Shown: positions 20,438 through 60,417 of the stretch, one piece after another | Layout: the number at the start of each line of letters is the position of its first letter | How positions within the stretch are numbered: position 1 is the stretch's first letter | Origin: Capitulum mitella | Taxonomy: Eukaryota; Arthropoda; Thecostraca; Pollicipedomorpha; Pollicipedidae | DNA length: 64,000 nucleotides | NCBI GenBank assembly: GCA_030062745.1 | Contig: CP099847.1 | Coordinates: 26,770,923-26,834,922, forward strand | Reading direction: 5' to 3' | The notes under the pieces: generated by a model | The model's input: only the letters and a program-made list of their open reading frames with translations | What the model was told of the DNA's origin: nothing | Databases searched by the model: none | Position numbers and translations under genes: made by a program

Positions 20438-20767
20438 CTAACTCCACTTTTCTACCGGGTTGAACCCATCTTCCGTCTGACCCCGCGAGTCAAATATGCA
20501 CGTACTTTGCTCTGCGACCAGCTGTCCCGGAAGGCGACAGCTGCTGCTGCTCGTCAGCTGGCGGCGGTGCACCCGCTGCTGTTGGTCGGCCTCCTGCTGC
20601 TCCAGCTCCTGCTGGTCAGTCTGCTGCTGGTTCGTCTGCTGCTGGTCGTCGTCCGGCTGGAACTGCCCGCTGAGCTGCGGCTGGCGCTGCCAGCTGTCCG
20701 GCGCCGGCTCCGGCTCGCTGGCCAGTCCCAGCATGGCCAGGATCTCTCCCCTGTCGGCCGGCGTCAT
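20438..20767 (-). CDS. Glutamine-rich open frame of uncertain status
   Basis: ATG at 20767 opens 109 codons: ADRGEILAMLGLASEPEPAP, then a CAG-rich stretch of Gln/Asp/Glu, and a stop at 20438. CAG codons dominate, so a repeat origin may explain its openness. A GTACGT donor lies inside (about 20506-20511). It is downstream of the opsin on the same strand, but the 7-bp repeats just before it put stops in every frame, so it cannot be joined to the opsin through them. No domain recognised. Confidence 0.25.
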   Translation of the reverse strand: MTPADRGEILAMLGLASEPEPAPDSWQRQPQLSGQFQPDDDQQQTNQQQTDQQELEQQEADQQQRVHRRQLTSSSSCRLPGQLVAEQSTCIFDSRGQTEDGFNPVEKWS

Positions 20768-20770
20768 GCT

Positions 20771-23356: not shown

Positions 23357-23639
23357 GTCCATCCACAACAAAGCACTGGGCGTTCTTATACCCTCCAGCT
23401 CCTGTGTCGCTGCCCCCCCCCCCCCCTTCCCCTGCCTCCGCACCGTCCACCGACCTGTACCGGCGCGAGAAGAGCATGTAGATAACGGGGTTGTACCATC
23501 CGGACGCCTTGGCCAGCACGGTGACGACGGCCACGGCTCCGGGCCCAGTCACCCGGTGGCCGGTGAAGGCGCCCAGCAGGGAGACGCAGGCGTACGGCAT
23601 CCAGGCCACCATGAAGCCCAGCACCAGCACGGCAGCCAC
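23357..23639 (-). CDS. Opsin exon 6: TM6, TM7 with retinal lysine, helix 8
   Basis: The acceptor is GACCAG before 23639, after a long pyrimidine tract. The proposed donor is GTAAGT (23351-23356), leaving phase 1. It encodes residues 240-333: TM6 with FMVAWMPYACV, loop 3, TM7 with LAKASGWYNPVIY, and helix 8 (MLFSRRYR). The lysine is six residues before the N of NPxxY, exactly the retinal Schiff-base position. The tail is glycine-rich because of a 12-base G run. If the donor is not used the frame ends at a stop at 23298 with 19 more residues. The homopolymer runs here and at 23689-23703 deserve checking as possible base-count errors. Confidence 0.93.
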
Positions 23640-26600
23640 CTGGTCGGCAGCGGTCCAGGACGTCGGGGCGGCGAGAGAAAGAGGGGGCAGCGGGGGGGGG
23701 GGGGCGGAGGGCAGGGGCGGGGGCAGGGGGTGGGCTGATGGACAACGGACGCATCGACGCAGAGGAAGGAAGTGAAGTGGGGGAGAGGGTAAATGAGAGG
23801 GTAAACCGACAAGACTTCCTATACAAATACTGCTAACGACAGAACTTCCACGACACGATTTCTAGGCGACATTAGTTCTAAGGCCAGAACTTCTGATGCA
23901 TAATTTTTTTTACGCGACAAAACTTCCAACGCTAAAAGCTCTATGCGACATTACTTCTAATGCAAGAACTTCTAATGTATAAACTTCTTCGCTACGAAAC
24001 TTCTAACGAGTGGTGCTCAAGACGTCAAAATTGTCACCTGCAAAAGCTAAAAACCCGAAATCTGTCACATTTCCATTTTGGTCAAATTGTATCCTGCCAG
24101 TCGAAATGATACATTAATCGCCTCCTTCCAGGGCCAGAATATGGAACCGCCGGCATATTTACAGCGACTTCTTATATTCCATGCCTGACGTTCGTATTTT
24201 CCTCAAATAATTACGGTTTCTCACACGTCTCCTTTAACCCTATTCCCGGAGGGCTAGACGGTATGGCCGATTCCCGGCAGGGGGGGGCGGATTCGGCCCC
24301 CCCCTGAGATCTCAAGAACTACTTATCCGATTTCATCGCAACAAACGGCAATCGATTTGCCGTCACGTGAACTACATTTTGGTAAAAAGAAATTTTCAGA
24401 ATTTTGAAATTTGTGGATACAGGGGGGCAAAAATGTCAAAATGGGGGGTACTTTTGGACTTCTTATAACTCCGTTGTTTATGGACCGATTTCGATGAAAC
24501 TGGCATCAATCGAGAGATTATGGATAGGGCTTTTACCATGGGTATGCAAATTTGAAATTTTGAGAAAATTCATGGGCGTTCACAGGGTTTCAAAAATAGA
24601 GGGATTAGTTTTCCAATAACGGAATGAACAAAATAGGCCAAAACACTTTTTTAGCTTCTGCTAGTCATGTTATGCTAAAGAAGTACAAATCGCATTACAA
24701 TGTTTGTATAATGTTAGCATAGGCGGTGCCAGGGACATAAAAAAGGGGGAACTGTCATGGTCACACGTTTCTCAGATCAACTTGTGACCTTTGACCTTAA
24801 ATGACCTCCAGTGACCTTGGGGTCACCTGGAATGATGTCGTGTGCATTCAATATTATCTGTAAACGTTTTTAATCGATTAAATTCACTCTATTCCAAAAA
24901 ATTCATTTTTTGGCTTTTGCGATATAGGGTACGTGCACTGACATTTTAGGTCATAGCTCCGTGACCTGACCTGATATCAAGCTGAAACTTGGTACACAAG
25001 TAGAGGGCATCTTTCTACGTCACATATATTCCGGGTTTGGCATTTGAAAAGACGGCGCCGAAATTATTGCGAAAAAACAAATTTTGACTTTTGACCTTGA
25101 CCTGACCTTGTAAAGTGACCTCAGATAAACAAAATTACATATGCACATTGCCCAACTATTTAGCTATACATTCATATAAAGTTTTAAGTTCTATCTTAAA
25201 AACTCTGTTTTTGGCAGACATTTTCCTTTTACCCTCAACATGGCTTAAAATGACCTGAGGTGCCTCCCAAAAACGTTGCCTGACTCCGCCCCTGAGCAAA
25301 ATAGAATTTCGAAATTTTGTCATGGTGCGTAGAAGGAATAGCTAGGAAAAGTGACCAAGTTTCGTGAAGCTGCGTCAAAAAGCCTGGAATTGGCAAGCAA
25401 AAAACCCGAGGGGGGGGCGGATTCCGCCCCCCTCTGCCGGGAATAGGGTTAATTCTAACCAAAATTTATCACCCAAGCTGCTGAGCAACTTGGCGGAGTT
25501 GTGCACTTCAGCTTCTAACCTAAGACCTTCTCCTCGTCAATACTTCTACGCCAAGCTTTTACGAGACAAAATTTCTGATGCGAAAACTTCCCCAAGTTCC
25601 AATTTCAACGAGGAATGCCAATTTCGAGGTTATTTTATTCTCAGGATCCCGGAATTGGAAAATGGCAATTTCTGGATATACCGGGATCCCGGGATTCGAT
25701 CTTGTTTATGGACATTCATCTAACATTGGTCTGCACGCTGTAATGTAAAACGTATCTGTACATCATAACTGCTTGCGTATTTCCTAACCTGAAACACCTG
25801 TGCGCATACAGCGAAAGAACGGAATGAACTGATATGCAAGTCATTTCAAACCTTGAAACTATGGACGACTGGGATTACTGTGCGTAACTCTAAACGCATA
25901 GGTTTAATTTTGACGCGTACCTAGTCGCATGCCGTAGGTGGCGTATGACGATATCACAAGAGCTGCTAAATCGGAAGTCCTTGTCTTGTCAAGTGTGCAC
26001 CTATGATGTGGTTTCTGAACCTCTTCAAGAACGATTTGGTCCCAAGCGTCGTAAATAAAAAATATATGACAGCAAATACCACTAAACCCGCGCCCGGCTG
26101 GCAGTCGGTGCCGTGCACGCCCGACTGGGAAGGGCTGCTGATAACCACCACCACCACCACCCCCCATGCACTCGTCTCATTTTCATTTTTGGATAATATG
26201 TAAGCGATATAGCCCTGTATACGTGTGGTTGGGGGGTGGTTGACCGTCTCCCTCTAACTCACGTACAGTTGGTCCCACAATAAAAATAAGCACATCGCTG
26301 GAAAGCTCGTGACGAGTAGAGCTTGAAACTGGTCTCATTTTTAGTTTTGAATAATATGTAAGCTATTTACGCCCTACACATATTTTCCCATAGCTGCCTA
26401 CATTAGACCTAGAAACGGCCTGAATCTCAAGGGCTGTGACTGATTAAGTCTAGACAAAGGCAGCAGCGGAAAGGCAAAAGTCTGCAGATGCCGATACACG
26501 CCTAATTTCCCTGATTTGTTTCATATGTACACGGAAACGTTGATTTAGGCGGGAGCCGCCGACGAAGGCTCTATGAAATTAACGGAAACTAATTTAAGCG

Positions 26601-29600
26601 TTATTTTATTTTCGCGAAATATGCCATTCCAAGTGTTGCTTCTTGATACTAGTGGTTCTTAAGATGATTTCTCATGCTTAAATTTTGGAAACCTCAGTAG
26701 TTATTAATTAACGCAACTGGCGGAATTTTATTCGCGAAAGTCTGTTTTTTTCCAAAATATGCAATTTTTAACTTTTCTAACTTCTTGATCTTAGTTACAA
26801 CTATGCGAGCCAGTTGTACCATTTTCTACCCGATCTGAGTCAATCATCGCCGATTTTAATGGCAGTGCATTTTGACTCACAACAGTTATTCGTGGCTTGA
26901 TCTCAGGTTAGTGGTCGGAGGTCATTGAAACTTTGCCCATGACGGAAACTAGATGTTTGGATCTTCCCACACTCCAATTGTTTTAAAAAATTCTGTCGAT
27001 TTTCGAAAAAAATCGACGACTTGATGTGATATATTAAATGATTGTTGACATGCTCAACACCGGCTTGACCTTAGGTCAATGACCCGGACATTTTCGAAAA
27101 ATCTGAGATGGCAGATTTATTGCATTTATCAAAATCTCTAACTCTTGGAATTTTATTGTGCTGTCATGTTTTGCAAAAAAGTTACAGGGCGCTAAACTTT
27201 TTTGGACATACGTCCACTTGACCTGACCCAAGTCAGACACGTTACATGACTTGAAGTCGAAAATTAGATACAAGATGTAAACATAATCAAGCACAAGATG
27301 CACAAAATTTTGTGGCGCTGCGCTCATTCGTTCTCTCGCAATCTTGGAAAAACCTCATGGAGGCTGTCAACCACCCATCCCGTCGGGGGCGGGTTAAAAA
27401 TTGTGATTTTCAATCTGCGCAGCTGGCGGAGCTTTATTCGCGAAAGTTTGGTTCTTCCAAAATAAGCAATTTTAAATACCTTTTGAACTTCGTGATATCA
27501 TTCGCAAAGCTGAGAGCCAGTCCAGACATTTTCTATCCGTTCTTCTAAGTCATTTATCGCCGATTTTGACGGCGTAGCATTTAGGCTCATAACATTTGCT
27601 GATGACCTGACCTCAGGACAACCGTTGGAAGTCATTAATACTTTGTCCGGTTACGATCATTGGATATCTGCATCACTTCATACTCAAATGTTACCAAAAA
27701 ATCCCGTCAGCTTCCGAAAAATGACATGCCTTGAAAATGGGCCTGACCTTAGATCAATGACCCAGAAGTTTCCAAAACGAAAAATGAGATAGTTGATTTG
27801 AGGCACCATTCAAGATTTCCACTTGCCGAAAGTTTCGTCGTGATATCTTGTTTTCCAAAAAAAGACGCTAAACTTTTTTGGATATAACTTCATTTGACCT
27901 GATCTAGGTCAGAGCCCTGACTCGACATTAAGCAAAAACTGTGAAACAAAATGTAAGAAGGATTAAGGAAAGGATGCACAGAATTTTGTGGCGCTGCTTT
28001 TGTTCGTCCTCTCGCAATCTTTGAAAAGCCCCTGGGGGCTGTGGACTGTGCCCTCCCCATTCGGGGCCCGGTTAAGATGGAAATCGGGGTCAAACTGGAT
28101 GTATACGGACCACACCTTCGCTATCCACTAGGTTCGTGGTCTTTTCAGTGTCAACCGAGAACACTGACTTAAGATGACACCGGATTACGTTTTTACCCTC
28201 GGGCCATGTCTAAGGTATTCTGAGACGATGATGCCGAATATCACATCTGTTTTGCATCATTCCCACTCATCCGTTTTGTTTATAGCCTCCAGATTGAGTT
28301 AACTTTCATGTCATTCCAACTTGCCATGTAATTTGACCTGAAATTACGTACGTAACTGACCGGAAGTGATGTCCAAGGCTAGCTTTAGATTCACAAGGCT
28401 TCAAGGAGCCACGCGTTTCTTGTCCGGTCTCTATGTATCATGCTTTGCGCTCCGTGCCCGTCCAAACTAAGCATTTCGCGGTTTTTGCCAATCTCAGGCC
28501 GTTGACCTGACCGGGGGGACATCGGTTGATCTAAAGCCGTAAAACTGGACATGCCTGGCTTCCTCTCATGACAAGAGACACCTCGGTTTTTCTTTCGTAC
28601 CTCTAACTCAATTAGGAGTCAAACGTCGGAGTTGGGAGGAGTCGTACCATTGAAACACCATCGAAGGTGCCGAAATTGCGTACACTGGCGAGGTTAAGAC
28701 TGATGAGATAAGTAGTTCGTATGGATCGCAGAGGGGGGTTGACAAGGGCTAGCGGAAGTTGTTCTGACCATTTGCGGTCGGAGAGCCTCTAGGGTGGGTC
28801 CTCTTTGCCACATGGAAATCGACATCTGGAATGGTCGGGATTCAAGCTCCAGACCTTTCGGCCAGGAGACGCACGCCTTATCAACAAGACCACGGTCGCT
28901 CCGAGTATCGTGAGAAAGTTATTGCATTCGAAGTGTTGTTGCCTTGAAGTTTCTGCACTATAAGTGTTCGCGTTAGAAGTGATGTGGGGTTTATGATTTT
29001 GCATAATAAGTTTCGCTGCGTAGACTTGCGGTGTAAGTTTTGTCGCGAAGACGTTTATGCATTAGCTGTTCTTATTATATGTCACGTAGAAGTTCTTGCG
29101 GTAGAAGTCTTGCCGCATAGAACTGATGTGGCCTGGAAGTTTTTGCGTTGGAAGTTTTGTCGCGAAGAAGCTTAGGCGTCATAAGTTTTATCGCGTAAAA
29201 GTAATATCGTGGTTGTGTAAGCTTTGTCGTTAGCGTTATTGAGTTAGTTCTGTCGTGGAATCCATGAGAGCGAGCAACAGACGGAAAAGAGGGATGTAAA
29301 GATGTATATTTAGACAGAGGGCGAGAGAGACCGGGAAAGGGAGAGAGCGAGGACAGTGAGGCAAACTGACACTGAGATGATGGATACGGCAGAAACCATG
29401 TTGCAACTATGTTGCCAACCGTAGAACGGAAAGGAAAACAGATTTTCACTCTAGTGTGGCTGACAACAAGAAGAGATGTGCGGACGTGCTATGAATAACA
29501 AAGGCGTCATAGTACCAACAAAACAACAAAAGCACATCGGCTTCTACGTTGAACATCTTACCATATTCAGGTTGACGTCGTTGGGCTTTTTCCTGGACGC

Positions 29601-32600
29601 TGGTTTCAAGTTCTGGTGGCTTTTTCTGACGGTGGCGATGATTCTCAAATAGAAGAATGTCATAGCGACAGCAGGCAAAAAGATGACGAAAATGGCGGAC
29701 ATTAAAATGTACATTTGGTCATCTGCAAACGGAGCGAGGCTGTTAAGGCATTCCTAAGTTAGTTTACTCTCGTGAAACATATTCTCAGTGTGGCTTGCAG
29801 ACGCGTTCGAGTCGCTTCGACACTCGATACTTGGCCCACGGGTCAGCTGGGAACTGGATTACATAGGGTCAAGCTGACTACCGCACGGTCGTATCGCACC
29901 CCTGGCGACGCGTTAATAGAAAAAACGTCGAACCCAGAGCAATAAGTACAATGTTGTTCTTGGCGATGTTGAAGAGAAGGTCGCTTTTTGTCATGTCCTT
30001 TTCTTCCATTCATGTCATTTGGCTACAAAGCAAACTTTTGTTGATTTAGCGCCGTAGACTTTCACATAAATAATTTTGTTCACCTTTGAAAAGACCAAAT
30101 TTTCAAGATATGATTTCAGCTCTCGTCATCTGCGAGGTCCTGTTTCTTATGATGGAAATGCCAGTTTTTAATCTGGCTTGCCACATACGCATTTCGCCAG
30201 CAACTACCGTTCGGTAAGCTTTCAGCGTCACAAAACCAGCAGGCGGCACTTTCCGCACACGGACTCTCGTCAGAGGAGGGGGACTTGCGTACCTGCTTGG
30301 AAAGATCTATGTAAGAGTCCTATGTACATCTCCTATATACATCTCCTATAAAAGAGTCGAGTGAGTGAACCCGTTCGTGTCCGTCAACCTACCAGACTGC
30401 ACGCAAGTACCCATCAGAACGTCGGTATCTGTGTCACCACCAGACCAAGCTGACCTATCTCCTGCCAGACCCATCTGCTCGCGGCAGGTCATCACTCACC
30501 CTTCTCAGAGGCGTTCCACTCCAAACTACAGCAGAGGCCGTGCTGTTCCACCCCGTAGCTGCCCCAGCCGAGAAGCGGACAGACCGACCAGAACGCCGAC
30601 CACACGTACACGAGGCCGACGAGGGTCGCCGGCAAGTTGGGCCGGTTCACGTACTCTGCAACAAATGCGTAATTACCTTTACCGTGACCGGCAGCTAGAT
30701 GCCGTGAATCGCCACCGGCACCGCGATCAGTGCCAGTAACGCGATCGGTGGCTCATTTCGGACAGCGGCGATCTCCCCGTCTGGCAGGACGGATTCGAGT
30801 CGATTCGACGCTCGATAGTCTGCCGTAAGTTGGCTGGCAGTTGGTAAATAGAGCGTCATGCTGACTAATAGTCGCTCGGCGTCTTCGGAGGAAGGTTAAT
30901 CCTCGCCCGGCCGGCACGTGGGCGGCCGGAGCCGGGGGAAGGCGTTTCAATGCTCTTCCCCTTTTATTTCGCGAACGGAAAGTCGGAGAAGAATGAAACT
31001 TATATCAACAGAAATCTCGCCTTGATTATGTTCGAAATCAATGAGAAATTAAAAAATGGAAAAATAATGCAACTTTTTAGCCTATATATGAAACAAATAG
31101 GACATTCTAAGAAGAGTTCTAGCTCCGCCCGAATAAAACTAGAGAAATCCTAAACATGCCGATGGTAAGCTAATAGAATGCAAATCCCACCTAACATGTA
31201 ATGCGTAACATGCATATAATCACACATCTCATTAGGTGACTGGGCATCTTCCATTTCGCTATGTTTGTGAGGTTTTTGAACGTTGTTGTCGAGTTGTTGT
31301 CCATGTACGTTTCCACAACGGTAGAACTGATCTGCACGAACCTTTCGTGAACATCGACGGACTAGACCGCCAATAAACCGACGTGACCTGACCTGACCTA
31401 ACATTCGGCCGTTTTCTTTGCTTTATTTCGTGTTCTGTCGAGGATCAATAACAATGCAAACAAAACGGCAAGGAGTACCTTTGGACTGAAACCCCTTGGG
31501 TTCCACAACCGTCATCGGTAGGTTGCTATACAAGGTCAGCCATATGGCTTGACCTAACGTGGGATCATGACCTGATTCGAAGCACGCCTGGGTTCCATCT
31601 TTTTATGCATAGATCTGCTTGACTCATCAAGTGAGTCACAGAGATAAAGATGAATATATGAACTTGCCACAGTCACCTCGCATGCCTTCAGGTGACTAAA
31701 GGTCATTTTACAACTTCGAAGCGTTCTGGTGAAATTTTGGACTGCAAAATCGACTTGAGTGCCTATTTTTACCACAGGAGTCATCAAAACGGGGTTTCGA
31801 CAACTTTTTGCTAGTTCACTAGTTCACCCCAAATGTGACTTGACCTCACCCTCATGACCTTCCACGTGGGTCACTATTTGTCATGTTCAGCGGCTTTCTT
31901 GGCCCAGGAATGCATTTCAGGAACCAGGACTTCCTTTCAGTTTCTACCACGTTGACCTCGCATATATCGCATATATCTAATGTCATATCACATCTTGGAA
32001 GCGTCTTAGTGCAGTAACAGACTGCACAATCGACTTCTGTGCCTGTTGTTGTTCCAGGGATCATCAAAACGGAGTTTAAACGCCCTTTTGCTAATTCACC
32101 CGACATTTGACCTAACCTGACTTTATGGCCCTTCATCTGGATCAACATGATTTGTCATGTTAGTGACTCTTGGCCCTAGGAATGCATTTCTGGCGCCAAC
32201 GAGCCGAAGAAACTGTCCAAAACCGTTCTAAATAGGGAAATAGGGCAGCAGCTGAACTGACATCGGGCCATTGGCCTTGGCCTCGACAAAACATTGACAT
32301 AGCACAATTTTTACGAATTCCGCGACTACTATTCCCGAAAGTTTCATGGTTACCAGTCGCGCGGTATGGTTAGTAGAAGGCCTAAAAAAAATCGGGTTTG
32401 ATCTCTTTTACGTGACCAAGGCCAGTGACCTCACATGCCCGGAAGTTGAAGATTCTATAGCGCAAAGGATGTCAAAAAGGCACGGGAAATTTCAGCGCGA
32501 GGCTGCGCAATGGTTTTTTGCTATCGCCAAAATTCCTTTGAGGTGGGGGGTTAAAACGCTCCCCCTTCCTAACTGGGCGAGGGCTAGACGTTCACCTTAA

Positions 32601-35600
32601 ATCAGCCGTGACCTGGAACCACTCAATCGGGCATGTGGCTCAGGGCCCGTGTAACCAGCTCTGCCTAGCACTAGCCATGGTCCCGAACATCACCCCAACA
32701 GACCATTTTGGGGGAAACCAAACAAACTGTTCTTTGCCGCCCCCGACACCACATCGTGGCGAACGACGCCGTTCACGGTGACTCCTTAGTCGAGGCTGTG
32801 CCGTGTTAGCCTTTCCACATGGTGTCCCAGACATATTCCGTATTCAGTTTGTTTTTAGAAAAATGGTAAGCGCCGCCCATCACGAGTACAGGTGGAATAT
32901 GCACGCATGAGCCGTATATGGAGTACGGCTGACTAAGCGGACTGACTGAGGTGCAACATGGCCATTGTAAGCCAGTACGACGTTATGCGTGGATGGACTA
33001 AGCATATGACGAAATGTGTTGCTGCCCATGACGCATAAAAAAAAATTTTGCACAAGAAGTATCCAATGGCAATCATTAAACGGTAACATGACTGTCACAA
33101 CGTATACAAATGCCTAACATGTTAACTATGACCTGGATAGCGTCCTTCGTCATATGGTGTCCCCCAGCAAGCGTTAAGGTGGCACCAGACGGGAAAAATG
33201 ATGCACCACACAATGGGTATGCCGGAACGTTGCAGCTACCTGCCATGCTAAACCAATGAAAAATAGGAATTTCGAGAAGATGTAACGATATAGTATCAAC
33301 ACCTCACTCGAGCTGACAGCGAGCGACGCCTAGTCTGCCGGCACTCACCTGCGTGCACCCAGCACGTTTTGATGTAGCGAATGATGGACACGGAGAGCAG
33401 GGCGGTGATGTTGGCCGTGCCGAAAAAGTAGCACAGCGCGCCGTGGACCACACAACCTGCGGACAGCGGGCTCCTGGGACAGGCTGGCGGTGCACCACGT
33501 CGCCTTCTCGTGGACCACACAACCTGCGGACAGCGGGCTCCTGGGACAGGCTGGCGCACCACGTCGCCTTCTCGTGGGTGAGAAAGCAGGGCTGTGTTTT
33601 CAAGGGCGGAGGGAAGGAGGAAAGGAAGGGACTGTTTTGAGGTCATATCCCGCACTCGCCAGGACCAGAATCAACGCATAAGTCGAAGATAGGGAAGGGA
33701 GCCTCCATGCGTTCAAGACTCAGGGGATCCAGAAGCCCAACTGTGCTGGGTTTGGAGAGTCTAAAACAGGAATGCCATGGAAGGCATCAAACAAATCATA
33801 TGCATTAAAAGCTGGAGCGCCGTTTTCGAATCGTTGGGATTCCCCCTGTTTCATTGCATAGCACAGTCCTGGAATGTGCATATACAACCCCCCTTCCCAA
33901 TCCTGCACTGGTTGGGTTCGCTGTATATGTCACCCTGCGTGGCTGAAGGATCTCAAAAGATCTGAGCGGAACCATTCATATTTCCTTGAGGCATACCGCT
34001 TAGGAGATTGTTCTGCCCGCACAGGCTTAAGACATACCTGATGACTCCTGGCTTCCTGCGCAGCACCGCAGTTGTGCGGGTTGTTGTAGGTGATTAATGA
34101 ATCTGGCCGCTTTTCCATGCTGTGCCGGGGAAACATCCAGGATTTGACCGCCGCCGGGCCAGTGGAGGAGTTCATGAGACCCCCTTCGGTATTTTGATGA
34201 TGGTCAGAAAACGCAGAGGCGCAGAGGCTTCACACTCAAGGTACCTTTTCATAAACCATTTTTACATCCTTCTTCAAATAAGGCCATGATCCAAAAAAGC
34301 AAAGCGCCTATTTTTTTCCCAAAACATGGATAGAACACGACAGATGCAACAATTCTGCTATCTCTAAGCCTTCGAAAATTTCGAATGACCTTAGGTTAGC
34401 TCGTTCGGCCTTATGCTATTAATTGGGATTATGGGTGTAGTTCGGTGATTGTGAAATTTGAATATGCGTCCTGGTGCTTCTCACGGCTTTTGCACATGTA
34501 CATTTACCGTTTGACCAGTGACCTGAGTTAGGGTTACGTTTTAAACCGACTTTTAAGGCCCGTGGCAGAAACTAATTCATCGATTTACAGTCTTTAAATG
34601 TTAATCTGTCGCCATGTGTGCCTTAGAAGCATGGCTATATGGTAGGAACTCGCTTTCCAACATTGACCCCAGGCCATTTGTGACAGGCTGATCTGATCTA
34701 ACATTTTCAAAAACGCTTCTTGTTTTCGATGCATTCACACTTTGTATGGCCACAAGTGGTCAGAACTACACCCATGCTTCATTCCTGTGCAGCATCTACT
34801 GCTCCAGTTCTCTTATCTTTGCCCGCCAATTTAAAAACCCTAGACATCGCTAACATGACCTCTCGTCAGATATAGGGTTTTTTACATTTTAGCCGCAACC
34901 GCTGCCCGGTGCCTGTCTCTCTTACGTGAAGAAAATGCATTGGGGAACGGGCTTCGTGGTGTAGAACGGATATTACATGAACCGATATTGTAGGCTTTGC
35001 GCTGTGTCGTATCTGATCAATGGAAATCCGGCAGATGATGCGACAGACACCAGAAACTCCCAACCTATAAGCGTCAAAAGTTGGCCTTTTGACCTTTTTG
35101 ATGTTAATAGATATTTGCAGACGTGATATGCATCTTGATCACATTTGTGTAGGAATATAACCAATAGCGACTTGCGTTTCGTCGCAAGTCGACTTGCAAA
35201 CAGTCGATTTTCGGCTCGCGGGCAATCTTTTGCAATGAATAAAAATGCAATTCCTGCCTTTATAAAATGTCGAAACTTCCCCCCCCCCCCACTTTCAGTC
35301 TCTTGTGAAATGGCCAAGTTTGACCTCGGATGCTTTTTTTACTGCACTTAATATGTAAATCAGGTTTTTTGTCACGTCTCACTTCCTTGGAGTCAAGTAA
35401 ACAACTTGATTATCACAGTTTTCTGCCGAAAATGCCAACAAGTGATCTAGCTTAAGATGACTGCTGGTTGTCTCAGTATGACCTCATTGGACTAAATCTG
35501 GGAGCCTTTTTCTAGCTGTACCACGGCGTTTCCAACAATGGTCTTACTTTTTCTGTGTGACCTGTAATTCACGGGATCTTGAGGGTCTCATGACGTTCCC

Positions 35601-38600
35601 CCGGTCTGACGAAGATGGTTACAGAGGCCGGCCGGCGAGGATTAAGTAACATTCCAGAAATTTGATCGAGTAGTCAAGTAGTCTTTAAGAAGTCTCGGGA
35701 ACGATTTTGATGTTTGACGGAAACGTACCTGCGCATAATGTCTTGTGCCAGGTCCGAATGATAGGTGCCGTCACACAGGGCGAACCAAACAAGAGCAGGG
35801 GCAGGGACGTATCCAAGGGGGAAGCCATGGGGCCATGCCCCCCCCCACCCCGAGCCATGCGGTGTACACTGGATATATGGCGATTTCGCAGGAATACATA
35901 ATAGTGATCACATATGTGTTGCAAAAGCAAGCATTATATGTTTTCCTGTGCGATAAGTATCACGTAAAATTATATGAAATTATATCCTTTTTTCTTACAA
36001 AGTTTGTGCTTTGCCAGTCACATATGACAAAATCTGACATTTACCCCCCTCCCTCCTATGAGGAAAATCCTGGCTACGTGCCTGAGCAGCGGCAACATTC
36101 AAGGGCAGGAAATCTAAACATTGCCTTATTTCCGATCGATCGTCCTCTTCATTGCAGCTTTTCACCACGATAGGAACGTCGTAAGTGCAAATAACGTTAT
36201 AGAATCCTGATACATTTTCCAGTCCATATTTATGCGTTTCAATTGGGTTTCCAAGCCAGGTAAGAGAAAACAGTGTTGTAAAGTCATATGCAAATCAAGT
36301 TATGTATTAAATGATTATTTTCTGCGCAGGGTCACCAGTTATCATGTCGTTAAAGTGATTTTCTTTTGACAAGACGGAGCCGTCTAGAAAACAAAAGCAG
36401 TTTCGTCGTTGAACTCATCCAAGGTAGACAGTCTGGTAAATTGACGTAGGAGTTCAAGCTGGACATAAAAAATACTTACGACAACGTGGTTACTGGATTA
36501 GAATGTTATACTATTAGAGGGAGCTATCTCTTACATCGATCGTCGCAACGGGTTCGTATTGTGTTGCTATTTGATTATTTTTCTTGCATAGTTGATCCAA
36601 ATGGTTGCTGGGGAGATGCTAGGAATAGGAATAGTAGCAACAGATTAACGAATACTATCACAGATATCTCGAAAAGATCGTCTATTTGCCTACCCGTATC
36701 GCCGAAGGCCCATCGGTGGCTGAAGGCGCTGACGGTCGTCAGCGGGCTGGTCACCATCATCATGATCAGGGTGGACACCGTCAGGTTGTACAGCAGATAC
36801 TCCATCGTTTGCATCTTCGCCTGACGCCGGTGAAACATGGCCAAGAACAGGATGTTTCCAACGAAGGACAAGACGCCTGAAACACAAGCCGGGAATATTG
36901 ATGGGCTTGGTTGCCTGCTGTGCTGCTCGTGGTGGAGGCTGCTCGTTTACGCATCAATGCAAAAACAATCGTCGTAATTAACCCACAAGTAAAGTGATGC
37001 TTGTAGGACTACGAGTTTATCAAGTGTTTCGCTGTGGTATGTTTCTTGTTTTTTTTCTGGGATTTATCACCGTTTCAGCATCACCACTAAGATTATTGAG
37101 TATCTTGCCATCATAAGGTTTTGAGGTCGCAGCACCAAACGTCTTAGGCGTGTTTCATGATGAGGTCGCTTTCCTCACGTATGGTCACGTCCAACAAATG
37201 TATGTGCTATGAATGATATGCAATATAGTTTTCATCCGTGCTCGAATGTGGGTTGCCGCCATCCACGCTCGACTGGGGGGGGGGGGGCGGTTGGCCGCCC
37301 CCTCTAACTCACGAACGGTTGGTCGCACGATAAAAATAAGCACACCACTGAAAGCTCGGAACGGGTCTCATTTTTAGTTCTGGATAATATGTAAGCCATA
37401 TACGCCATAAATATGTTTTCTCATAGTCGACTGCATGGGTCCGAGACACGGCCTGAATCTCAAGGGCTGTGACTAATAAAGTCTAGAAAAGGCACCAGCG
37501 GACAGCTAAAAGTTCGCAGATGTCGATGCATACCTAATTTCTCTGATTTGTTTCATATATGCACGGAAACGCTAGGTGAAAGACATGGTGATTTTTACAA
37601 GGCTGCAAGGCGGGCGCCGCCGATGAAGGCGGTATGAAATTAACGGGAACTAATTTTGGCGTTCCTTTATTTTCGCAAAATGTGCCATCCCAAATGTTGT
37701 TTCTTGATAATAGTGGTTCTTGGGATGATTTCTCACGCTTAAATGTGAGAAAAAATTAGTAGTTATTAACGTACACAATTGGCGGAGCTTTTCTCGCGAA
37801 AGTCCGTCTATTCCCAAAATGCACTTTTTTGAAACTTTCTGAACTTCGTGGTATTAGTCGCAACTGTGCGAGCCAGTTCTGCCGGTTTCAACCCGATCTG
37901 AGTTATCCATTGCTGATTTCTATGTCAGTGCATTTTGACTCAAAACAGTCATTCGTGACCTGACCTCAGGTCAGTGGTTGGAGACCATTGAAACTTTGGC
38001 CATCGACGGAAACTGGATGTTTTGATCTCCCAACCCCCAAACTGTTTTACAAAATTCCGTCAGTTTCCGAAAAAAGCGACTTATGTCGGAAACGAGCTTG
38101 ACCTTAGGTCAATGACCCGGACATTTGTGAAAAATCTGAGATTGCAGGTTTATTGCATTTGTCAAAATCTCTAATCCATGAAAGTTTTATTGTGATATCA
38201 TGTTTTGCGAAAAAGTTGCAGAGCGCTTAACTTTTTTTGACATAGGTCCACTTCATCTGATCTAGGTCAGACACCTTACTTGACCTTAGGTCAAAAATTG
38301 GATACAGGGTGTAAAAATGATTAAGCAAAAGGTACCGCAAAGTTTCATGACGGTGCATTTGTTCCTTCTCTTGAAATCTTCGAAAAACTCAGGGAGGCGA
38401 TCACCTGCCTCCCCAGTGGGGGACGGTTAATAGTCCAACAAAGAGTAAACGTTCATTTCACAGTCATGCAATGCACCTTCAGGGTTGCGGATACATGCTC
38501 CTACCAACGACAGCATGTCGAGTTATTACTCTCTGGAGGAAGGGTGAAGGGTCGCTCCTATGAGGTTTCTTGTGTACTGCCGGCGAACGGCCCACATCAA

Positions 38601-41498: not shown

Positions 41499-41543
<45 letters not shown>

Positions 41544-44500: not shown

Positions 44501-45197
44501 TGTTTTTCTAATCAGCGAGTTGAGCAAATTTCGGCAGCATTTTCCGCCCATTATATAACTTCCAAGCCGAAGACGTAAATGGAAAACGCTGTGAAGAATT
44601 TTCTCGCAAGATTATGTATCAATGCTATTTTCTTTACCACCGTTTCCGGAATGAAAACCTCACGAATAAACAAGGCCTTTCAGTGAGAAAGCAACCTAAA
44701 CATGCCTACCATCGAAAGCCATACGTGTCAACAATGGCATGCAACAAAATGCATTTGAATATCACATCTTGAAACGCACACATACAAACATAAAGACATC
44801 GACAGTCATCGATCGTTTGAAAAATGATTCATCTCAGGTACGTGCATACCCGGACGACGTAAGGAACGAGAGTAATCCAGATTACCCCACATGCTCGGTG
44901 TAAACACTCACGGGAAGCCCAGACTATTTTTCAATTACAGTGGGGTATACCCGCAACAGAACAGAACAGCGGTGCCGATGGACAACAAACGGCGAGCCGA
45001 CCGGCGAAGCGTTTGGTGTGTTTTGATTTTCACAGTATCGCACGTGTTTGATGCGACCCGGACGCCGTCGAGCGAGAGCGAATCCACCAGTGATGGCAAC
45101 GCTGGCGACAAAGTTACGAGCGCGAAACTCGTTAGACGTCTCCACCAAATACCGTAGTTATTTATCTATTTATTTGGTTTGTTGTATATTTATTGTA

Positions 45198-45253
<56 letters not shown>

Positions 45254-46377
45254 AACCTACATATGTGTGTAATCATGTATCGCGGCAGAGCGTATTCTTT
45301 CAGACATATCTTGTTAAAAGGAACCGCAGCATTAGCTTTTCCCAGCTTTTTGATAGTTTTTCTTTTTTATGGATCGAGCAGTCGTTCCAAGATCGTTCGT
45401 TAATCGTGAAATCAGGATCACAAAGGCATTCATTTATTAACGTTTCGAAAAATTATTGTTTTTGTCTTCAGAATACGGACAATAGTTACGACGCTACACC
45501 TCTCGTTGGAACTACTACGTGCAATGCAATACGCATTAAATATAAAAGTAATTTCATTCTTGATATTTCCTAACAGCGAAAATTATTTGTTAATCCTTTG
45601 TTTCTTTGCTTCGTTGCGTTTTTTAATTGTCTGAAAATTCCTTGTTTCACCCGCGGCCACGCTAAAAGTCAAGGCCATTCCAAGATTGCGCGTCACCGAC
45701 TATTCCAAAGTCCCAGTGCCAAGCACAGCTGTATCTGAACGTTCAGTTCCGGTGTACAGTTTTGTGTAAAAAGGGCCTCATGTATGTGAAGACGTCTGTG
45801 GTCATTACACATCATGAATATCGTCGTGTCACCAGTCAGTGTCTGCTTTGTCAGAGTACAGTCATGCACCTGCCGTGAGTGCTGGGCAGGAGAACCATCG
45901 TTAAGGTGTATGAAAAGCCGTCTAGATAGAGAAGTTGTAGTACCAATGTAATGCTATTTACGAAGCCTGCAGTCTTCTTGTGGGCATGTTTATTGATACA
46001 CTACATTGTCACTTTTCAGCGTGCCGTGTCTTTTAGTCAGGTCGTCTCCCATGACAGGATTTTGGATCGTTCTGTTTCGGCAGTAAGTGATGAGCTTAAG
46101 TTCGTCGTTTCTTGCCCTAGGGGTCACGTGTTTGCGTATTCTGTCGTTTATCACGTTTTCGTCCGTTGCAGGCCGGTTTCATCCGATTTTTGTAGAAGAG
46201 TTTGATTGCACTGTTGTGATCCGTGTAAGTCTTTGTATGCTTCACATTGTCCATGTGTGTAGAATATGATTTGTTTGTCAACAGTCGCGTTTGGTAGCCG
46301 TTGTTCATTAAAGTCTGCTTTAGTCTGTCGATAACGATAAGAAAGTTTGTAAAAACCAATGCTGCAGTCGCTTTCAA

Positions 46378-46450
<73 letters not shown>

Positions 46451-58400: not shown

Positions 58401-60417
58401 TTTTGGCCTACTTAGGCATATACAAATACAAATTAGGGGATGGTGGTGTGCGCTCCGAGCCCCGTCCATTACGAAGGATACGTGCCAAATACAGCGCCGT
58501 GGTGTCTTCTTGCGAATTACGTTCATCGCTATGCTTTGTGGAAAAAAAGAAGGCAGTATGCTGCTTGGCTCTTTGCTAGTACGGCGGGGCTGACAGGGTG
58601 AGACAGCAGGCAGGCTTCGCCTGTTACTGCGTGGCGCGGGCGGAAGGGCGCGTTGTGAGACCACAAACTTTTATTTGCGAATGGCAATGATGTTAGGTAT
58701 AATTGATTTATTCTGCGTGATGTAAACTCTGCTTGTACTTGATGTAGGTGCTATCCAACGGGGTATTTATTTTTTCCTATGACATATGTTTCGCGAGTTG
58801 GAGGGGGGCGAGTGTTCAGACACCCTCCGGCACGGGAAAGGCGGATCTGAACTGCTGGTACGGTGCCGGCTAAAGGAGGCACAAAATCTTCCCAACCGGC
58901 CGAATCAACAGTCTTTCTCGTTCCTCAGGGCAGAAGTCAGAAAGGAACTGCCAAGTATGATCAAATGAACGCAGTCAGCTGACGGCACTTTCGGTCGAGT
59001 CCGTCGAGATGACGTCATCGAAATCTGCGTGTCGTCATTTCGTTTGCCCGTCTATTTCGCGTCCGTTGAGTCCGTGACGTGTAAACTGAGATCAGAGTCC
59101 CGCTACGCACTTACCTGCGATGTGTAATGAGGGCCAAAACTACATCATCGCAGCGGCCGACAGATGGCGATAAATGTATTGAGGTTACGTAGTTTGTGGC
59201 GACTAAATAAAAGAAAACAATGACCTCGGATGTTCAGAACCAGTTTCCCGGTCGTTCATAGTACTTTTTGCCGGTCCAGGTCGGAAATCGCCGACATGGA
59301 CGTTTGGGTGAAAACATCGTGAATTTGGTGTGCAGCGTGTAGTATTAAAACGTAAAATGGAGAAGTTTTCTCGTTTTAAAGGAAATCAGAATCCTTTGAA
59401 GAACATTTCAGCTGTTAAAAGTTTTCTTCGAAGTTACTGTTCACACCCTGAAAATGAGACCTTGAAAATTGGCTTCAAGTTAAAAAAAAAGAAAGACATT
59501 TTCCTTTTTAAATGCAAATAGCAGAAAGACGCAGTATTTCATCTTCACCATGACCATATCCAGTTCTTAAACATGTGGTGATTGGTAACATTACTGAAAT
59601 AGTGCGCATTATTTCACCAAGCAATTTACCAAAAATTACCAAATTTCGAAATTTTGAATTGCTGTAGCAAAAAAAAAACATTGGTCAGATCGACCTGAGA
59701 AGTGAAAATATGAAATCGCATCCGCAGGTTAAACTATTGACCAAGTTTTGTCAAAGTTTGGGACTAGGGTGCGTTAATTTTGGTAGGTGCCTGGCCGATT
59801 TATCCTTGAAGGCCCCAGTAAGCAAAACTTTGCTCCCTGGCCCGACACCGCCTGGGGTAGGTCTCAAATGACACACCCCTCGGTTTTCCGTGAATAACTT
59901 CTCAATCGGGCCACCATTGCGCATGTTAGAGCGATTTTTAGTAGCAATCCAAAACAGGGACAGATCTCATGTTTGCCTATTGCCTCAGCTCAGCGCGTCT
60001 AAAACTGCATCATAGAGAGTTTCCGCGTCGCTCTCGCACGGCGACATGCCTCTTTTCCCTGCTTATATTCTCCTTGCCTCCCTGTCGAATTCGGCCCAAG
60101 CATTTCTGCTTTCCGGCATTTCTGCCGAAGTGTCCGTCGCCTCTTCAGCGCCATCACAATGCCATTTTTGCATCGCCACCAACCGGCGCGATGCAAACGA
60201 TCGTTTTTAAGGAGCACGCGAGCTCACGGGAAGCCGGGAGAGCAGTCACGAGACACGCGGTCCGCCGCGCCCAGCGCAGGGCGCGACGCCCACGCGCCCG
60301 TCTCTCACCGGCAATGGCCACCAGGGTGCCGTAGATGTAGTCCTGCAGTGGGGTCAGCTGGGAGGCGAACTTGTCGGCGTCGCCGGCCGGCCGGCCGCCC
60401 TCCGCTCCGGCCGACAT
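23357..60417 (-). CDS. Opsin (seven-transmembrane photoreceptor GPCR), six coding exons recovered
   Basis: Joined on the minus strand, exons 60417-60309, 36876-36694, 33456-33349, 30655-30500, 29722-29562 and 23639-23357 make a continuous frame of 333 codons plus one base. All junctions are GT-AG with phases 1,1,1,1,0. Opsins bind retinal through a TM7 lysine and signal through G proteins at the plasma membrane or in photoreceptive organelles. Visible marks: GN in TM1 (N44), C99 and C176 for the extracellular disulfide, RY at 124-125, W152 in TM4, GWGSY and E170 in loop 2 (the E181 position), WMPYA at 252-256, K283 in LAKASGWYNPVIY, and helix 8 after NPVIY. Odd points: I123 replaces the acidic residue of (E/D)RY, T72 sits at D2.50, and H102 sits at the vertebrate counterion position 113. 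This fits E181-counterion opsins, perhaps near neuropsin, peropsin or RGR, but the subfamily is inferred. The 3' end is uncertain: a strong donor follows residue 333, while read-through would stop at 23298 (352 residues). Confidence 0.93.
23820..24010. repeat. Degenerate 15-17 bp tandem repeat, orientation 1
   Basis: Repeated variants of CGACAAAACTTCCAACG and CTTCTAATGC at roughly 15-17 base spacing. It resumes at about 25500-25600, across the family A element at 24238-25448, so the element appears to have landed next to or within the array. Confidence 0.6.
24785..24817. promoter_or_regulatory. Cluster of four TGACCT half-sites including a perfect DR1
   Basis: TGACCT at 24785, 24792, 24802 and 24812. 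The first two form TGACCTTTGACCT, the reverse complement of AGGTCAAAGGTCA, the consensus DR1 element bound by RXR/HNF4/COUP-TF-type nuclear receptors. It sits inside a transposon copy, so function is unproven. Confidence 0.6.
25092..25121. promoter_or_regulatory. Second TGACCT cluster in family A copy 1
   Basis: TGACCT at 25092, 25098, 25103 and 25116 (directly abutting or overlapping by one base). A further group (AGGTCA then two TGACCT) lies at about 24947-24975. Confidence 0.55.
25500..25600. repeat. Degenerate 15-17 bp tandem repeat, continuation
   Basis: The same motifs as 23820-24010 (TTCTACGCC, ACGAGACAAAATTTCTG, GCGAAAACTTCC) resume beyond the family A element. Confidence 0.5.
26216..27393 (+). 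mobile_element. TTAA-type element, family B copy 2
   Basis: The start is diverged (GGTTGGGGGGTGGTTGACC); the right end GGGGGCGGG is followed by TTAA at 27394-27397. The body aligns with 37225-38426 and with the reverse complement of 15542-16760. It is in opsin intron 5. Confidence 0.7.
27398..28071 (+). mobile_element. 5'-truncated family B copy abutting copy 2
   Basis: Immediately after the TTAA at 27394-27397 comes internal family B sequence (GGCGGAGCTTTATTCGCG), running to a family B right end and TTAA at 28072-28075. The left half is missing. Two same-direction copies share the middle TTAA. Confidence 0.6.
28076..28775. mobile_element. Decayed TGACCT-rich element relic
   Basis: Starts at the shared TTAA and carries TGACC(T) motifs and a GACCGGGGGGACATCGG stretch resembling the other families, but its right end is not clear. 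Confidence 0.3.
28790..28905 (-). mobile_element. tRNA-like SINE head
   Basis: On the minus strand GTGGTCTTGTTGATAAGG (28876-28893) resembles an A box region and GGAGCTTGAATCCC (28837-28850) a B box, at tRNA-like spacing. No clean cloverleaf; tRNA-derived SINE favoured. Confidence 0.45.
28920..29235. repeat. Degenerate 15-17 bp tandem repeat, orientation 2
   Basis: About 18-20 diverged units around GAAGTTTTGTCGCG, for example GGTGTAAGTTTTGTCGCG and GTTGGAAGTTTTGTCGCG. It is the reverse complement of the array at 23820-25600, about 3 kb away. Confidence 0.65.
29562..29722 (-). CDS. Opsin exon 5: TM5 and start of intracellular loop 3
   Basis: The acceptor is CCGTTTGCAG before 29722 and the donor is GTAAGATG at 29554-29561; phase 1 in, 0 out. 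It encodes residues 186-239: a TM5 helix with FLPAVAMTFFYLRI (proline and tyrosine of the class A TM5 pattern), then the basic stretch VRKSHQNLKPASRKK at the cytoplasmic end, as expected for the G-protein-facing loop 3. A 776-base intron holding a repeat fragment near 29790-29890 separates it from exon 4. Confidence 0.92.
30500..30655 (-). CDS. Opsin exon 4: TM4 and extracellular loop 2
   Basis: The acceptor is TTGTTGCAG before 30655 and the donor is GTGAGTGAT at 30491-30499, phase 1/1. It encodes residues 134-185: TM4 with W152, then GWGSYGVEQHGLCCSLEW, an opsin-specific loop. Aligning the second cysteine (C176) with rhodopsin C187 places E170 at rhodopsin position 181, the ancestral opsin counterion. 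NAS at 181-183 is a possible glycosylation sequon. No ATG-started reading frame marks this exon; it was found from splice sites and the GWG motif. Confidence 0.9.
30757..30830 (+). mobile_element. Repeat fragment with B-box-like GGATTCGAGTC, copied at 29790-29890
   Basis: GGATTCGAGTCGATTCGAC with a following CTCGATA recurs, diverged, at about 29800-29830 (TTCGAGTCGCTTCGACACTC). A tRNA-derived SINE fragment is likely. The two copies sit on either side of opsin exon 4. Confidence 0.35.
30900..32583 (+). mobile_element. TTAA-type element, family C copy 2
   Basis: TTAA at 30896-30899 followed by TCCTCGCCC; the right end is GGGCGAGGG at 32575-32583 with CTAG in place of TTAA. Internal sequence matches 11870-13282 and has a partial internal duplication around 31860-32170. 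TGACCT-type motifs recur (for example 31383-31400). It lies in opsin intron 3. Confidence 0.65.
32590..33340. other. Opsin intron 3 remainder, nothing seen
   Basis: No exon, element end or repeat could be supported here. Confidence 0.5.
33349..33456 (-). CDS. Opsin exon 3: TM3
   Basis: A 108-base exon between CCGCAG (acceptor, 33457-33460 on the plus strand) and GTGAGTGC (donor, 33341-33348), phase 1/1. It encodes residues 98-133, starting with the disulfide cysteine (GCVVHGALCYFFG) and ending in SIIRYIKTCWVHA. The arginine-tyrosine of the (E/D)RY motif is kept but the acidic residue is isoleucine. Histidine occupies the position of the vertebrate counterion E113. The acceptor lies in a 67/64-bp tandem duplication that supplies a second acceptor 67 bases upstream; use of that one would shift the frame. 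Confidence 0.92.
33442..33572. repeat. Tandem duplication (67 and 64 bp) over a splice acceptor
   Basis: Copy 1 (33442-33508) and copy 2 (33509-33572) are identical except for a 3-base gain (GTG) in copy 1. Each contains, on the minus strand, GTCCGCAG followed by GTTGTGTGGTCCACG, the acceptor and first bases of opsin exon 3. Confidence 0.92.
34180..35600. mobile_element. TGACCT-rich element relic (possible further TTAA-like family)
   Basis: Bounded by inverted CATGAGACCCCC (34172-34183) and GGGTCTCATG (35584-35593), with many TGACC(T) motifs between. No TTAA at the ends was found, so the limits are tentative. It lies in opsin intron 2. Confidence 0.35.
35802..36084. mobile_element. hAT-like MITE (283 bp) with 8-bp target duplication
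   Basis: Starts CAGGGACGTATCCA and ends TGGCTACGTGCCTG, imperfect inverted termini beginning CAG. Flanked by AGCAGGGG (35794-35801) and AGCAGCGG (36085-36092), 7 of 8 identical. An 8-bp duplication and CAG..CTG ends fit hAT elements. Similar termini are at 39366-39580 and 52326-52474. Confidence 0.6.
36694..36876 (-). CDS. Opsin exon 2: TM1-TM2 and first extracellular loop
   Basis: The acceptor is TTTCAG before 36876 and the donor is GTAGGC at 36688-36693; phase is 1 at both ends. It encodes residues 37-97: the GN of TM1, the basic intracellular loop FHRRQAKMQ, TM2 and the loop motif HRWAFGDTG typical of opsins. TM2 reads NLTVSTL where most class A receptors have NLxxxDL, so the sodium-binding aspartate D2.50 is a threonine. 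The exon is AT-poor relative to the surrounding intron, as expected for coding sequence. Confidence 0.92.
37225..38426 (+). mobile_element. TTAA-type element, family B copy 3
   Basis: The left end is diverged without TTAA; a long G run and CCGCCCCCTCTAACTCACG follow, as in the other copies. The right end GGGGGACGG is followed by TTAA at 38427-38430. It lies in opsin intron 1. Confidence 0.7.
38431..39360. mobile_element. Possible TGACCT-poor element relic
   Basis: Follows directly after the family B TTAA. Some AGGTCA motifs (38667-38680) but no recognisable ends. No exon seen. Confidence 0.25.
39366..39580. mobile_element. hAT-like MITE relic
   Basis: Starts CAGGGACATAGCCAG and ends CTTGGCTACGCCCCGG, imperfect inverted termini of the same kind as 35802-36084, with a C run before the right end. 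Target duplication not clear. Confidence 0.45.
39905..40850 (+). mobile_element. Decayed family A copy
   Basis: Internal stretches such as TTTGATCGCAACAAAAGG and the block of TGACGTCAGGTGACCTCAG align with family A, but both termini are gone. Confidence 0.5.
40851..41990. other. Opsin intron 1 segment, nothing but a microsatellite
   Basis: Contains an (AT)n tract at 41503-41540 and a GGAAGCCATGGGGCCAGGGG stretch like the inner part of the hAT-like MITE. Confidence 0.5.
41503..41540. repeat. (AT)n microsatellite
   Basis: Uninterrupted AT tract of about 38 bases. Confidence 0.93.
41996..43181 (-). mobile_element. TTAA-flanked element, family A copy 2 (1,186 bp)
   Basis: TTAA at 41992-41995 and 43182-43185. 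It begins CCCTATTCCCGGAGG and ends in a diverged GCTGGAAAGAGGG. Reverse orientation relative to 24238-25448. Contains AAGGTCA/AGGTCA blocks at about 42310-42350 and 42620-42650. Confidence 0.8.
43763..43828. repeat. Polypyrimidine (CT)n/(TTTC)n tract
   Basis: TTTC repeats pass into a C run and then (CT)n. Confidence 0.9.
45204..45246. repeat. (AT)n microsatellite
   Basis: About 43 bases of AT. Confidence 0.93.
45400..46378 (-). pseudogene. Penelope-like retroelement remnant (RT C-terminus and GIY-YIG endonuclease)
   Basis: Read on the minus strand, the frame from 46377 shows the end of a Penelope-type reverse transcriptase (IDRLKQTLMNNGYQTRLL; IKLFYKNRM), a linker (ITYCRNRTIQNPVMGDDL; NVVYQ) and a GIY-YIG nuclease (HYIGTTTSLSRRLFIHL; then RRLHIHEAL). 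Penelope elements join RT to a GIY-YIG endonuclease, so the order is diagnostic. The YIG codons are at 45942-45950. The copy is dead: a stop and frame change near 46117, further stops near 45985 and 45955, and no sequence upstream of the (TA)n tract at 46380-46447, which truncates it. Downstream, TCGAAACGTTAATAAATG (about 45428-45447) is like the 3' tail of such elements and includes AATAAA. Confidence 0.75.
46380..46447. repeat. (TA)n microsatellite at the Penelope-like breakpoint
   Basis: About 68 bases of TA abut the truncated 5' side of the element on the minus strand. Confidence 0.95.
46448..47089. other. Opsin intron 1 segment, possibly retroelement-derived
   Basis: No exon. GTCCTAATGGGCTATCCG and AATAAACAGGG look like a retroelement tail, but no family can be named. 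Confidence 0.35.
47090..47622. repeat. 36-bp minisatellite, about 14-15 units
   Basis: Units of 36 bases contain CACCTGAGCTCTCGAGGCCG then a variable TGTACCCGGAACACCT-type half. CACCTG recurs in nearly every unit. Since 36 is divisible by three, several frames on both strands stay open and give 12-residue repeats (for example GRVPGTPHLSSR on plus and VFRVHGLESSGE on minus). No spacers, so not CRISPR. No sign that it is translated. Confidence 0.95.
47640..50747. other. Opsin intron 1 segment, no exon seen
   Basis: Contains a SINE-like head (49109-49164) and fragments with hAT-like termini wording (GTGGCGTAGCAAGGATTC near 48909; AGTGGCGTATTCAGGGCG near 49640). Nothing else supported. Confidence 0.45.
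49109..49164 (+). mobile_element. tRNA-like SINE head
   Basis: AAGATGGTTGAATGG (A-box-like) and GGGCAGATTCGATTCTCC (B-box-like) at tRNA-like spacing. No clean cloverleaf. Confidence 0.35.
50752..52071. mobile_element. TTAA-flanked element, family D (1,320 bp)
   Basis: TTAA at 50748-50751 and 52072-52075. The left end CCTGGCGCCGCCTGG and right end GGGCAGTGCCGGG are imperfect inverted repeats, each followed inward by a block of CCC/GGG pairs. Interior has TGACCTGACCT and CAGGTCAGG strings (for example 51243-51265, 51523-51537, 51860-51872). No transposase frame. A related end fragment is at about 59830-59890. Confidence 0.75.
52326..52474. mobile_element. Short hAT-like MITE
   Basis: Starts CAGGGGCGCAGCCAGGAATT followed by a G run and ends GACTGCGCCTG, an imperfect inverted terminus. 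About 150 bp. Confidence 0.5.
52480..56500. other. Opsin intron 1 segment, no exon assigned
   Basis: An open plus-strand frame at 52613-53218 (201 codons) is peptide-like in parts but has no known domain or clear splice sites. A GC-rich island lies at 53850-54180 with a 20-bp triple repeat. The rest is unremarkable. Confidence 0.4.
54077..54136. repeat. 20-bp tandem repeat, three units
   Basis: GGGACTCGAGACGGCTGCCG three times in a row within a GC-rich island. Confidence 0.9.
56503..56613. repeat. Inverted repeat next to a cluster of ATCGAT/GATC motifs
   Basis: GGAATGCCCCT (56503-56513) and AGGGGCATTCC (56541-56551) are exact reverse complements with a 27-base loop. They are followed at once by a run of GATCGAT motifs (56558-56613). 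Confidence 0.8.
56700..59650. repeat. Inverted repeat pair about 2.8 kb apart
   Basis: GGTGAAATAATGTGTATTAT (about 56769-56788) recurs as its near reverse complement at about 59594-59625 (TGAAATAGTGCGCATTATTT), with similarity extending on both sides. They may be the arms of an unrecognised element, or two copies in opposite orientation. No gene is seen between; 57000-59460 holds only unsupported frames. Confidence 0.45.
59830..59890 (-). mobile_element. Family D-like end fragment
   Basis: CCCTGGCCCGACACCGCCTG and CACACCCCTCGGTTTTCC, read on the minus strand, resemble the right end of the element at 50752-52071. Confidence 0.4.
60309..60417 (-). CDS. Opsin exon 1: N-terminus and start of TM1
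   Basis: Starts at an ATG (60417) and encodes 36 residues. A short Gly/Ala-rich extracellular segment is followed by LQDYIYGTLVAIA, the outer half of TM1. The exon ends with one base (phase 1) at a GTGAGAG donor (60301-60308), and the split codon becomes the glycine that continues TM1 in exon 2. The join gives a hydrophobic helix running into GVLSFVGN, the expected opsin TM1. The N-terminus has no NxS/T sequon. The exon lies in a GC-rich island and is separated from exon 2 by about 23.4 kb. An in-frame GTG at 60429 is not a plausible eukaryotic start. Confidence 0.85.

Follow-up and report, generated by a model that had tools for sequence, protein, structure and literature searches.

A divergent opsin gene of Capitulum mitella, probably of the Opn5 group, with changed residues at positions 2.50, 3.49, and 4.50

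Neuropsin (opsin 5, Opn5) is a nonvisual light receptor. Neuropsins have been reported in vertebrates, echinoderms, molluscs, crustaceans, and tardigrades (PMC3279408, PMC6233551, PMC12221356, and PMC10733189 among the sources), so another divergent member would be no surprise by itself. Members of the Opn5 group are reported to differ in colour, in isomer preference, and in the direction of the light response (PMC3279408, PMC12221356, PMC12579811, PMC12405127). In chicken Opn5L2, I-R-F replaces E/D-R-Y, and the recombinant protein is described as activating Gi in a UV-dependent, reversible manner; the purified pigment turns Gi on under UV and yellow light lowers its activity, and after incubation with all-trans-retinal it has a detectable dark activity, the authors suggesting some basal activity (PMC3279408). 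Lys91 is a UV-tuning residue conserved in vertebrate Opn5m, where the K91S change gives a violet-sensitive pigment (PMC12405127), and Opn5m2 and Opn5L2 are reported to be UV sensitive without it (PMC12457702). Opn5L1 is described as a photocyclic receptor that depends on Cys188 and whose all-trans-retinal form is dark active (PMC5871776, PMC12579811), and Cys188 as conserved in the whole Opn5L1 subgroup (PMC5871776). For crustacean Opn5b, Asp83 (position 2.50) is given as the counterion and E181 as absent; positions 83, 94, 113, and 181 are named as counterion sites in the same source (PMC12221356). The slug proteins Opn5A and Opn5B, with responses to visible and UV light, are reported to mediate a lowering of cAMP by light (PMC10729476).

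The window analyzed here, a stretch of 64,000 nucleotides from Capitulum mitella, was described in an earlier note as holding an opsin that could be rebuilt from six phase-consistent exons over 37 kb. All six were recovered on the minus strand, from 60417 to 23357 (Table 1). The five introns are all GT-AG, in phases 1, 1, 1, 1, and 0, and the joined exons contain no in-frame stop. There are two options for the 3′ end of exon 6, a GTAAGT donor or an in-frame read-on to a TAG near 23300; when the donor is left unused, the frame comprises 352 codons to the TAG, and the tail past TM7 is glycine rich with a poly-G run. Within the window, the opsin gene looks complete, single, and intact.

Table 1. 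Exons of the predicted opsin gene and the duplication at its third exon
Feature	Coordinates	Strand	Content
Opsin exon 1	60309..60417	-	Start codon, N-terminus, TM1 start (MSAGAEGG...YGTLVAIA); donor GTGAGA; phase 1
Opsin exon 2	36694..36876	-	TM1-TM2 and ECL1; N1.50, T2.50 (ACC), S91; phase 1 to 1
Opsin exon 3	33349..33456	-	TM3; C110, H113, I3.49-R3.50-Y3.51 (Ile = ATT); phase 1 to 1
Opsin exon 4	30500..30655	-	TM4 and ECL2; Y4.50 (TAC), E181, C186, C187, S188; phase 1 to 1
Opsin exon 5	29562..29722	-	TM5 and ICL3; P5.50, Y5.58, D6.30; phase 1 to 0
Opsin exon 6	23357..23639	-	TM6-TM7 and start of tail; W6.48, K7.43, NPVIY
67-bp tandem duplication	33442..33577		95% matches; exon-3 acceptor copied

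Exons 2 to 6 were also detected, in the correct order and strand, by tblastn with a presumed human OPN5 sequence as query and with the composition correction and low-complexity filter switched off (E-values of 1.3e-9 for exon 2, 1.8e-9 for exon 6, 3.8e-5 for exon 4, 6.0e-4 for exon 3, and 0.004 for exon 5). Matches to bovine rhodopsin were weaker (exon 6, 1.5e-7; exon 2, 0.007; exon 4, 0.90; exon 3, 2.9), only exons 6 and 2 falling under 0.01. Exon 1, which had no tblastn match of its own with the OPN5 query, is supported by its phase, its donor, a third-position GC of 0.92, and its resemblance to the start of an opsin TM1. In the last respect it ranked first of the 15 phase 1 candidates running from an ATG to a donor within 36877-64000, with a score of 11.2 versus -2.7 for the runner-up. 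The GC contents of the coding frame at codon positions 1, 2, and 3 are 0.544, 0.453, and 0.826, with 0.461 for the window. Given the frequency of stops in intron 1, 333 codons would be stop free with a probability of 2.5e-7; this value is rough, since open exons had been selected in the first place. A scan for coding sequence, based on codons and weak as a tool here, placed six stretches of the window above its threshold, including exons 2 and 6, and missed exons 1, 3, 4, and 5. At the duplicated acceptor of exon 3, use of the outer copy (first exon base 33523) would shift the frame and introduce a stop after residue 198. This decoy acceptor could lower the rate of correct splicing, with a share of the transcripts lost.

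The highest score of the codon-based scan fell outside the opsin gene, at 20540-20770 on the minus strand, about 2.6 kb past its last exon; this stretch encodes ADRGEILAMLGL... followed by a glutamine-rich part, and no Pfam match was found for 20441-20770. On the plus strand, a 358-codon open frame at 4594-5670 carries a long proline run and ends in an AT-hook-like RRGRPRKYP. Pfam gave no match for the whole frame at E 0.1 or below. With the limit raised to E 5, the matches were weak and well short of their cut-offs (E 0.26 with the entire frame, 0.096 with part of it), and the frame may represent an exon of an unknown gene. A 36-bp minisatellite at 47085-47603 (14.4 copies, 91% matches) is open throughout on both strands, for example as repeats of SSRGRVPGTPHL. 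Copies of an interspersed repeat lie at 24282-25414, 61887-62616, and 62762-63893, the latter two as a large inverted pair; they are 87 to 96% alike in the ungapped pieces listed and are probably a noncoding mobile element. Of the 595 ORFs of the window, 10 were scanned against Pfam, none of them with a match at E 0.1 or below, and neither an Rfam family at gathering scores nor a tRNA was found in the window.

The predicted protein, hereafter the window protein, is an opsin, as had been proposed. Its residues 43-293 match profile positions 1-260 of 260 of Pfam 7tm_1 (E 2.8e-37), and it combines the seven-TM class A architecture with the lysine at 7.43 (K296) that marks animal opsins. A search of solved structures returned 501 sequences under E 0.001; in the ranking, taken from the best 60 of the 501, the best 25 were opsins, headed by squid rhodopsin, and the 26th was an adrenergic receptor. 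In blastp comparisons with ten presumed reference sequences, the best partner was OPN5 (34% over 296 residues, E 1.4e-52), with scallop Go-opsin (30%, 8.0e-40) and peropsin (24%, 8.5e-38) as runners-up. Matches in virus and prokaryote sequence collections were peptide-pattern matches (one and five stretches), none of them encoding a relative, as expected for an animal gene.

A small opsin tree was run by maximum likelihood under a mixture model with 11 rows. The references for the tree and the landmarks were presumed sequences, mostly one per group, with a single Opn5 row. The window protein was sister to human OPN5 with support of 98/97, and it stayed with OPN5 (97/95) in an 8-row tree from which retinochrome, RGR, and MT1 had been removed. 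All five alternative placements, as clades fixed before the tree was seen, were rejected by the AU test (p-AU of 0.0064 with RGR and retinochrome, 0.0045 with peropsin, 0.0168 with Go-opsin, 0.0086 with rhodopsin/OPN3, and 0.0197 with OPN4/Rh1). The wider tetraopsin clade had a support of 74/83 in the 11-row tree and was not resolved in the 8-row tree. The branch of the window protein is long (1.99 and 2.35 in the 11-row and 8-row trees, respectively), so long-branch effects are possible.

Residues were called by alignment to bovine rhodopsin, whose numbering is used, with presumed sequences as the reference rows; Ballesteros-Weinstein numbers are given alongside, and positions 2.50, 4.50, and 6.30 are read by the roles generally assigned to them. 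The landmarks that the earlier note had listed as retained, namely, K7.43, E181, the disulfide pair C110/C187, W6.48, NPxxY, and R3.50-Y3.51, are all present, the last motif but one as NPVIY (N302, P303, Y306), and N1.50, P5.50, Y5.58, F6.44, and P6.50 are kept as well. With D at position 6.30, an acidic partner for R3.50 remains. The three substitutions pointed out earlier, T at 2.50, I at 3.49 (giving IRY), and H at 113 (CAC), are likewise real in this sequence, as judged from the alignment and the codons. Single base errors were considered as their source for T2.50 and I3.49 and were rejected, because each would need at least two base changes (ACC versus GAC; ATT versus GAT). The other differing positions are 6.34 (N), 186 (C), 188 (S), and 91 (S).

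A further landmark change, absent from the earlier list, is W4.50Y. Within TM4 of class A receptors, W4.50 is generally the residue with the highest conservation, and among the ten other rows, all presumed sequences, Y4.50 is shared only by squid retinochrome. A nonacidic residue at 3.49 occurs in 3 of these rows (G in RGR, C in scallop Go-opsin, and N in MT1), and D2.50 is absent from one (A in retinochrome). The joint change of 2.50, 3.49, and 4.50 in the window protein exceeds that in any of the ten: retinochrome has two such changes, and RGR, Go-opsin, and MT1 have one each.

Within the Opn5 group, the window protein can be compared with four described types. Human OPN5 (Opn5m), the closest row throughout, likewise has K296, E181, C110/C187, NPxxY, and an acid at 6.30, whereas its D2.50, D3.49, Y113, W4.50, and Lys91 correspond to T, I, H, Y, and S; with S in place of Lys91, typical Opn5m identity was rejected. 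Chicken Opn5L2, as described, resembles the window protein in belonging to the Opn5 group, in having Ile at 3.49, and in lacking Lys91 (PMC3279408, PMC12457702), and differs in reading I-R-F rather than I-R-Y. Its TM core is reported to be 34% identical to Opn5m (PMC3279408), a value similar to the 34% blastp identity of the window protein to human OPN5. A link to Opn5L2 is possible. Opn5L1 also belongs to the group and has two adjacent ECL2 cysteines, and Opn5L1-type photocycling was considered for this reason; it was rejected because the pair in the window protein is one place off (C186-C187-S188 rather than the described C187-C188) and Cys188 is absent. Crustacean Opn5b, of the same group, is described with the reverse of the residues found here (T83, with E181 kept), so that identity with Opn5b was rejected as well.

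We consider it probable, from the residues and the tree taken together, that the window protein is a fast-evolving tetraopsin of the Opn5 group on a long branch, which would act as a retinal-binding, light-switched, bistable receptor of the Gi/o type with E181 as counterion. Retinal would be bound through K296, as the earlier note had argued, and K296, E181, C110-C187, and W6.48 support this part well. E181 is the only candidate counterion among the four sites named for opsins, since positions 83, 94, and 113 are nonacidic. H113, singled out earlier as an oddity, loses that standing, because M or H is named at this position where E181 is the counterion; Y occupies it in most of the tabulated starfish opsins (PMC6233551). 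The receptor would presumably be switched by light as a bistable pigment and signal via a Gi/o-type G protein, the functional mark of the Opn5 group being a bistable pigment that activates Gi/o (or a Gq-type protein) in light. Given S91 instead of Lys91, the Opn5m route to UV sensitivity is not expected; the colour cannot be called from this, because Opn5L2 is reported to be UV sensitive without Lys91. Nor would a thiol photocycle of the Opn5L1 type be expected without Cys188. The earlier suggestion that the loss of both acids alters activation fares unevenly. Its 3.49 part is weakened, because Opn5L2 works with IRF, and a missing E/DRY acid alone is therefore no sign of an odd mechanism; dark activity may be somewhat raised without D/E3.49, as suggested for chicken Opn5L2. 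As for its D2.50 part, D2.50T stays unexplained, as does W4.50Y; without that aspartate, signalling could be damped or redirected, and the three landmark changes together might mean that signalling has been lost.

A photoisomerase-like opsin that binds all-trans-retinal, of the RGR, retinochrome, or peropsin kind, or a nonsignalling Opn5-group protein in that role, is an unlikely explanation, although the earlier note had offered a photoisomerase-like function. H113, C186-C187, and a nonacidic 3.49 are common to human RGR, and the lack of D2.50 and the presence of Y4.50 are common to squid retinochrome (both presumed sequences). Counts of private shared columns place retinochrome (11) second to OPN5 (13), followed by rhodopsin and MT1 (9 each), OPN3 (8), Rh1 and Go-opsin (7 each), RGR and OPN4 (6 each), and peropsin (5), and they separate the candidate groups poorly. 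Against these likenesses, the AU test rejected the clades with RGR and retinochrome and with peropsin, and membership in the former, considered for the shared H113, CC, and Y4.50, was rejected with it. Moreover, the window protein keeps NPVIY, Y5.58, P6.50, and D6.30; in retinochrome, by contrast, NPxxY, Y5.58, and P6.50 are missing, and RGR reads NAxxY.

It is quite unlikely that the window protein is instead a dark-active (reverse) or constitutively active receptor of the Opn5 type. Mutation of the 3.49 acid is reported to make class A receptors constitutively active, and the basal activity suggested for Opn5L2 points the same way (PMC3279408), as does the dark activity of Opn5L1, from the same group, with all-trans-retinal (PMC5871776, PMC12579811). 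Chicken Opn5L2, however, is described as clearly light activated with its IRF (PMC3279408), the cysteine 188 of Opn5L1 is replaced by S188, and D6.30 remains to hold R3.50. We regard as similarly improbable a tetraopsin outside Opn5 proper, for example a Go-opsin or a member of a clade resembling the unclassified tetraopsins of molluscs beside neuropsin and Go-opsin. Scallop Go-opsin, the second blastp partner, also lacks the 3.49 acid (C), and unclassified tetraopsin clades are reported to adjoin neuropsin (PMC10733189), but the Go clade was rejected, in the weakest of the three tetraopsin-group tests. Early gene decay under relaxed constraint, with no working receptor made, is very unlikely, since the long branch, the three changed landmarks, the poly-G run, and the 67-bp duplication with its decoy acceptor are set against a stop-free frame of 352 codons with five GT-AG introns, a GC3 of 0.826, and the retention of most ligand and signalling landmarks.

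For the Opn5-group receptor that we prefer, the noteworthy feature is that T2.50, I3.49, and Y4.50 occur together with K296 and a complete NPxxY, a combination that deserves a test. Of the nine other aligned opsins, RGR and scallop Go-opsin are those that lack the 3.49 acid, and both retain D2.50; the sole one without D2.50 (retinochrome) also lacks NPxxY. Among the best 10 of 252 matches to literature on neuropsin or opsin, the wording "D2.50" does not occur. We propose, tentatively and with considerable reserve, that a receptor of the Opn5 lineage may have replaced D2.50, D/E3.49, and W4.50, which rank among the best conserved contacts of class A receptors, and yet kept retinal and the remaining G-protein machinery, as the predicted residues suggest. 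Any signalling would then take place in the absence of the sodium-site aspartate, and the balance between dark and light activity may be shifted. With both acids lost and the G-protein-facing R3.50, D6.30, Y5.58, and NPxxY kept, such a protein would help to separate the role of each residue in light activation, and, if the proposal is true, it would be a natural test of the limits of an opsin that lacks D2.50, D/E3.49, and W4.50. As a probable member of the Opn5 group, the window protein would widen the known sequence range of that group.
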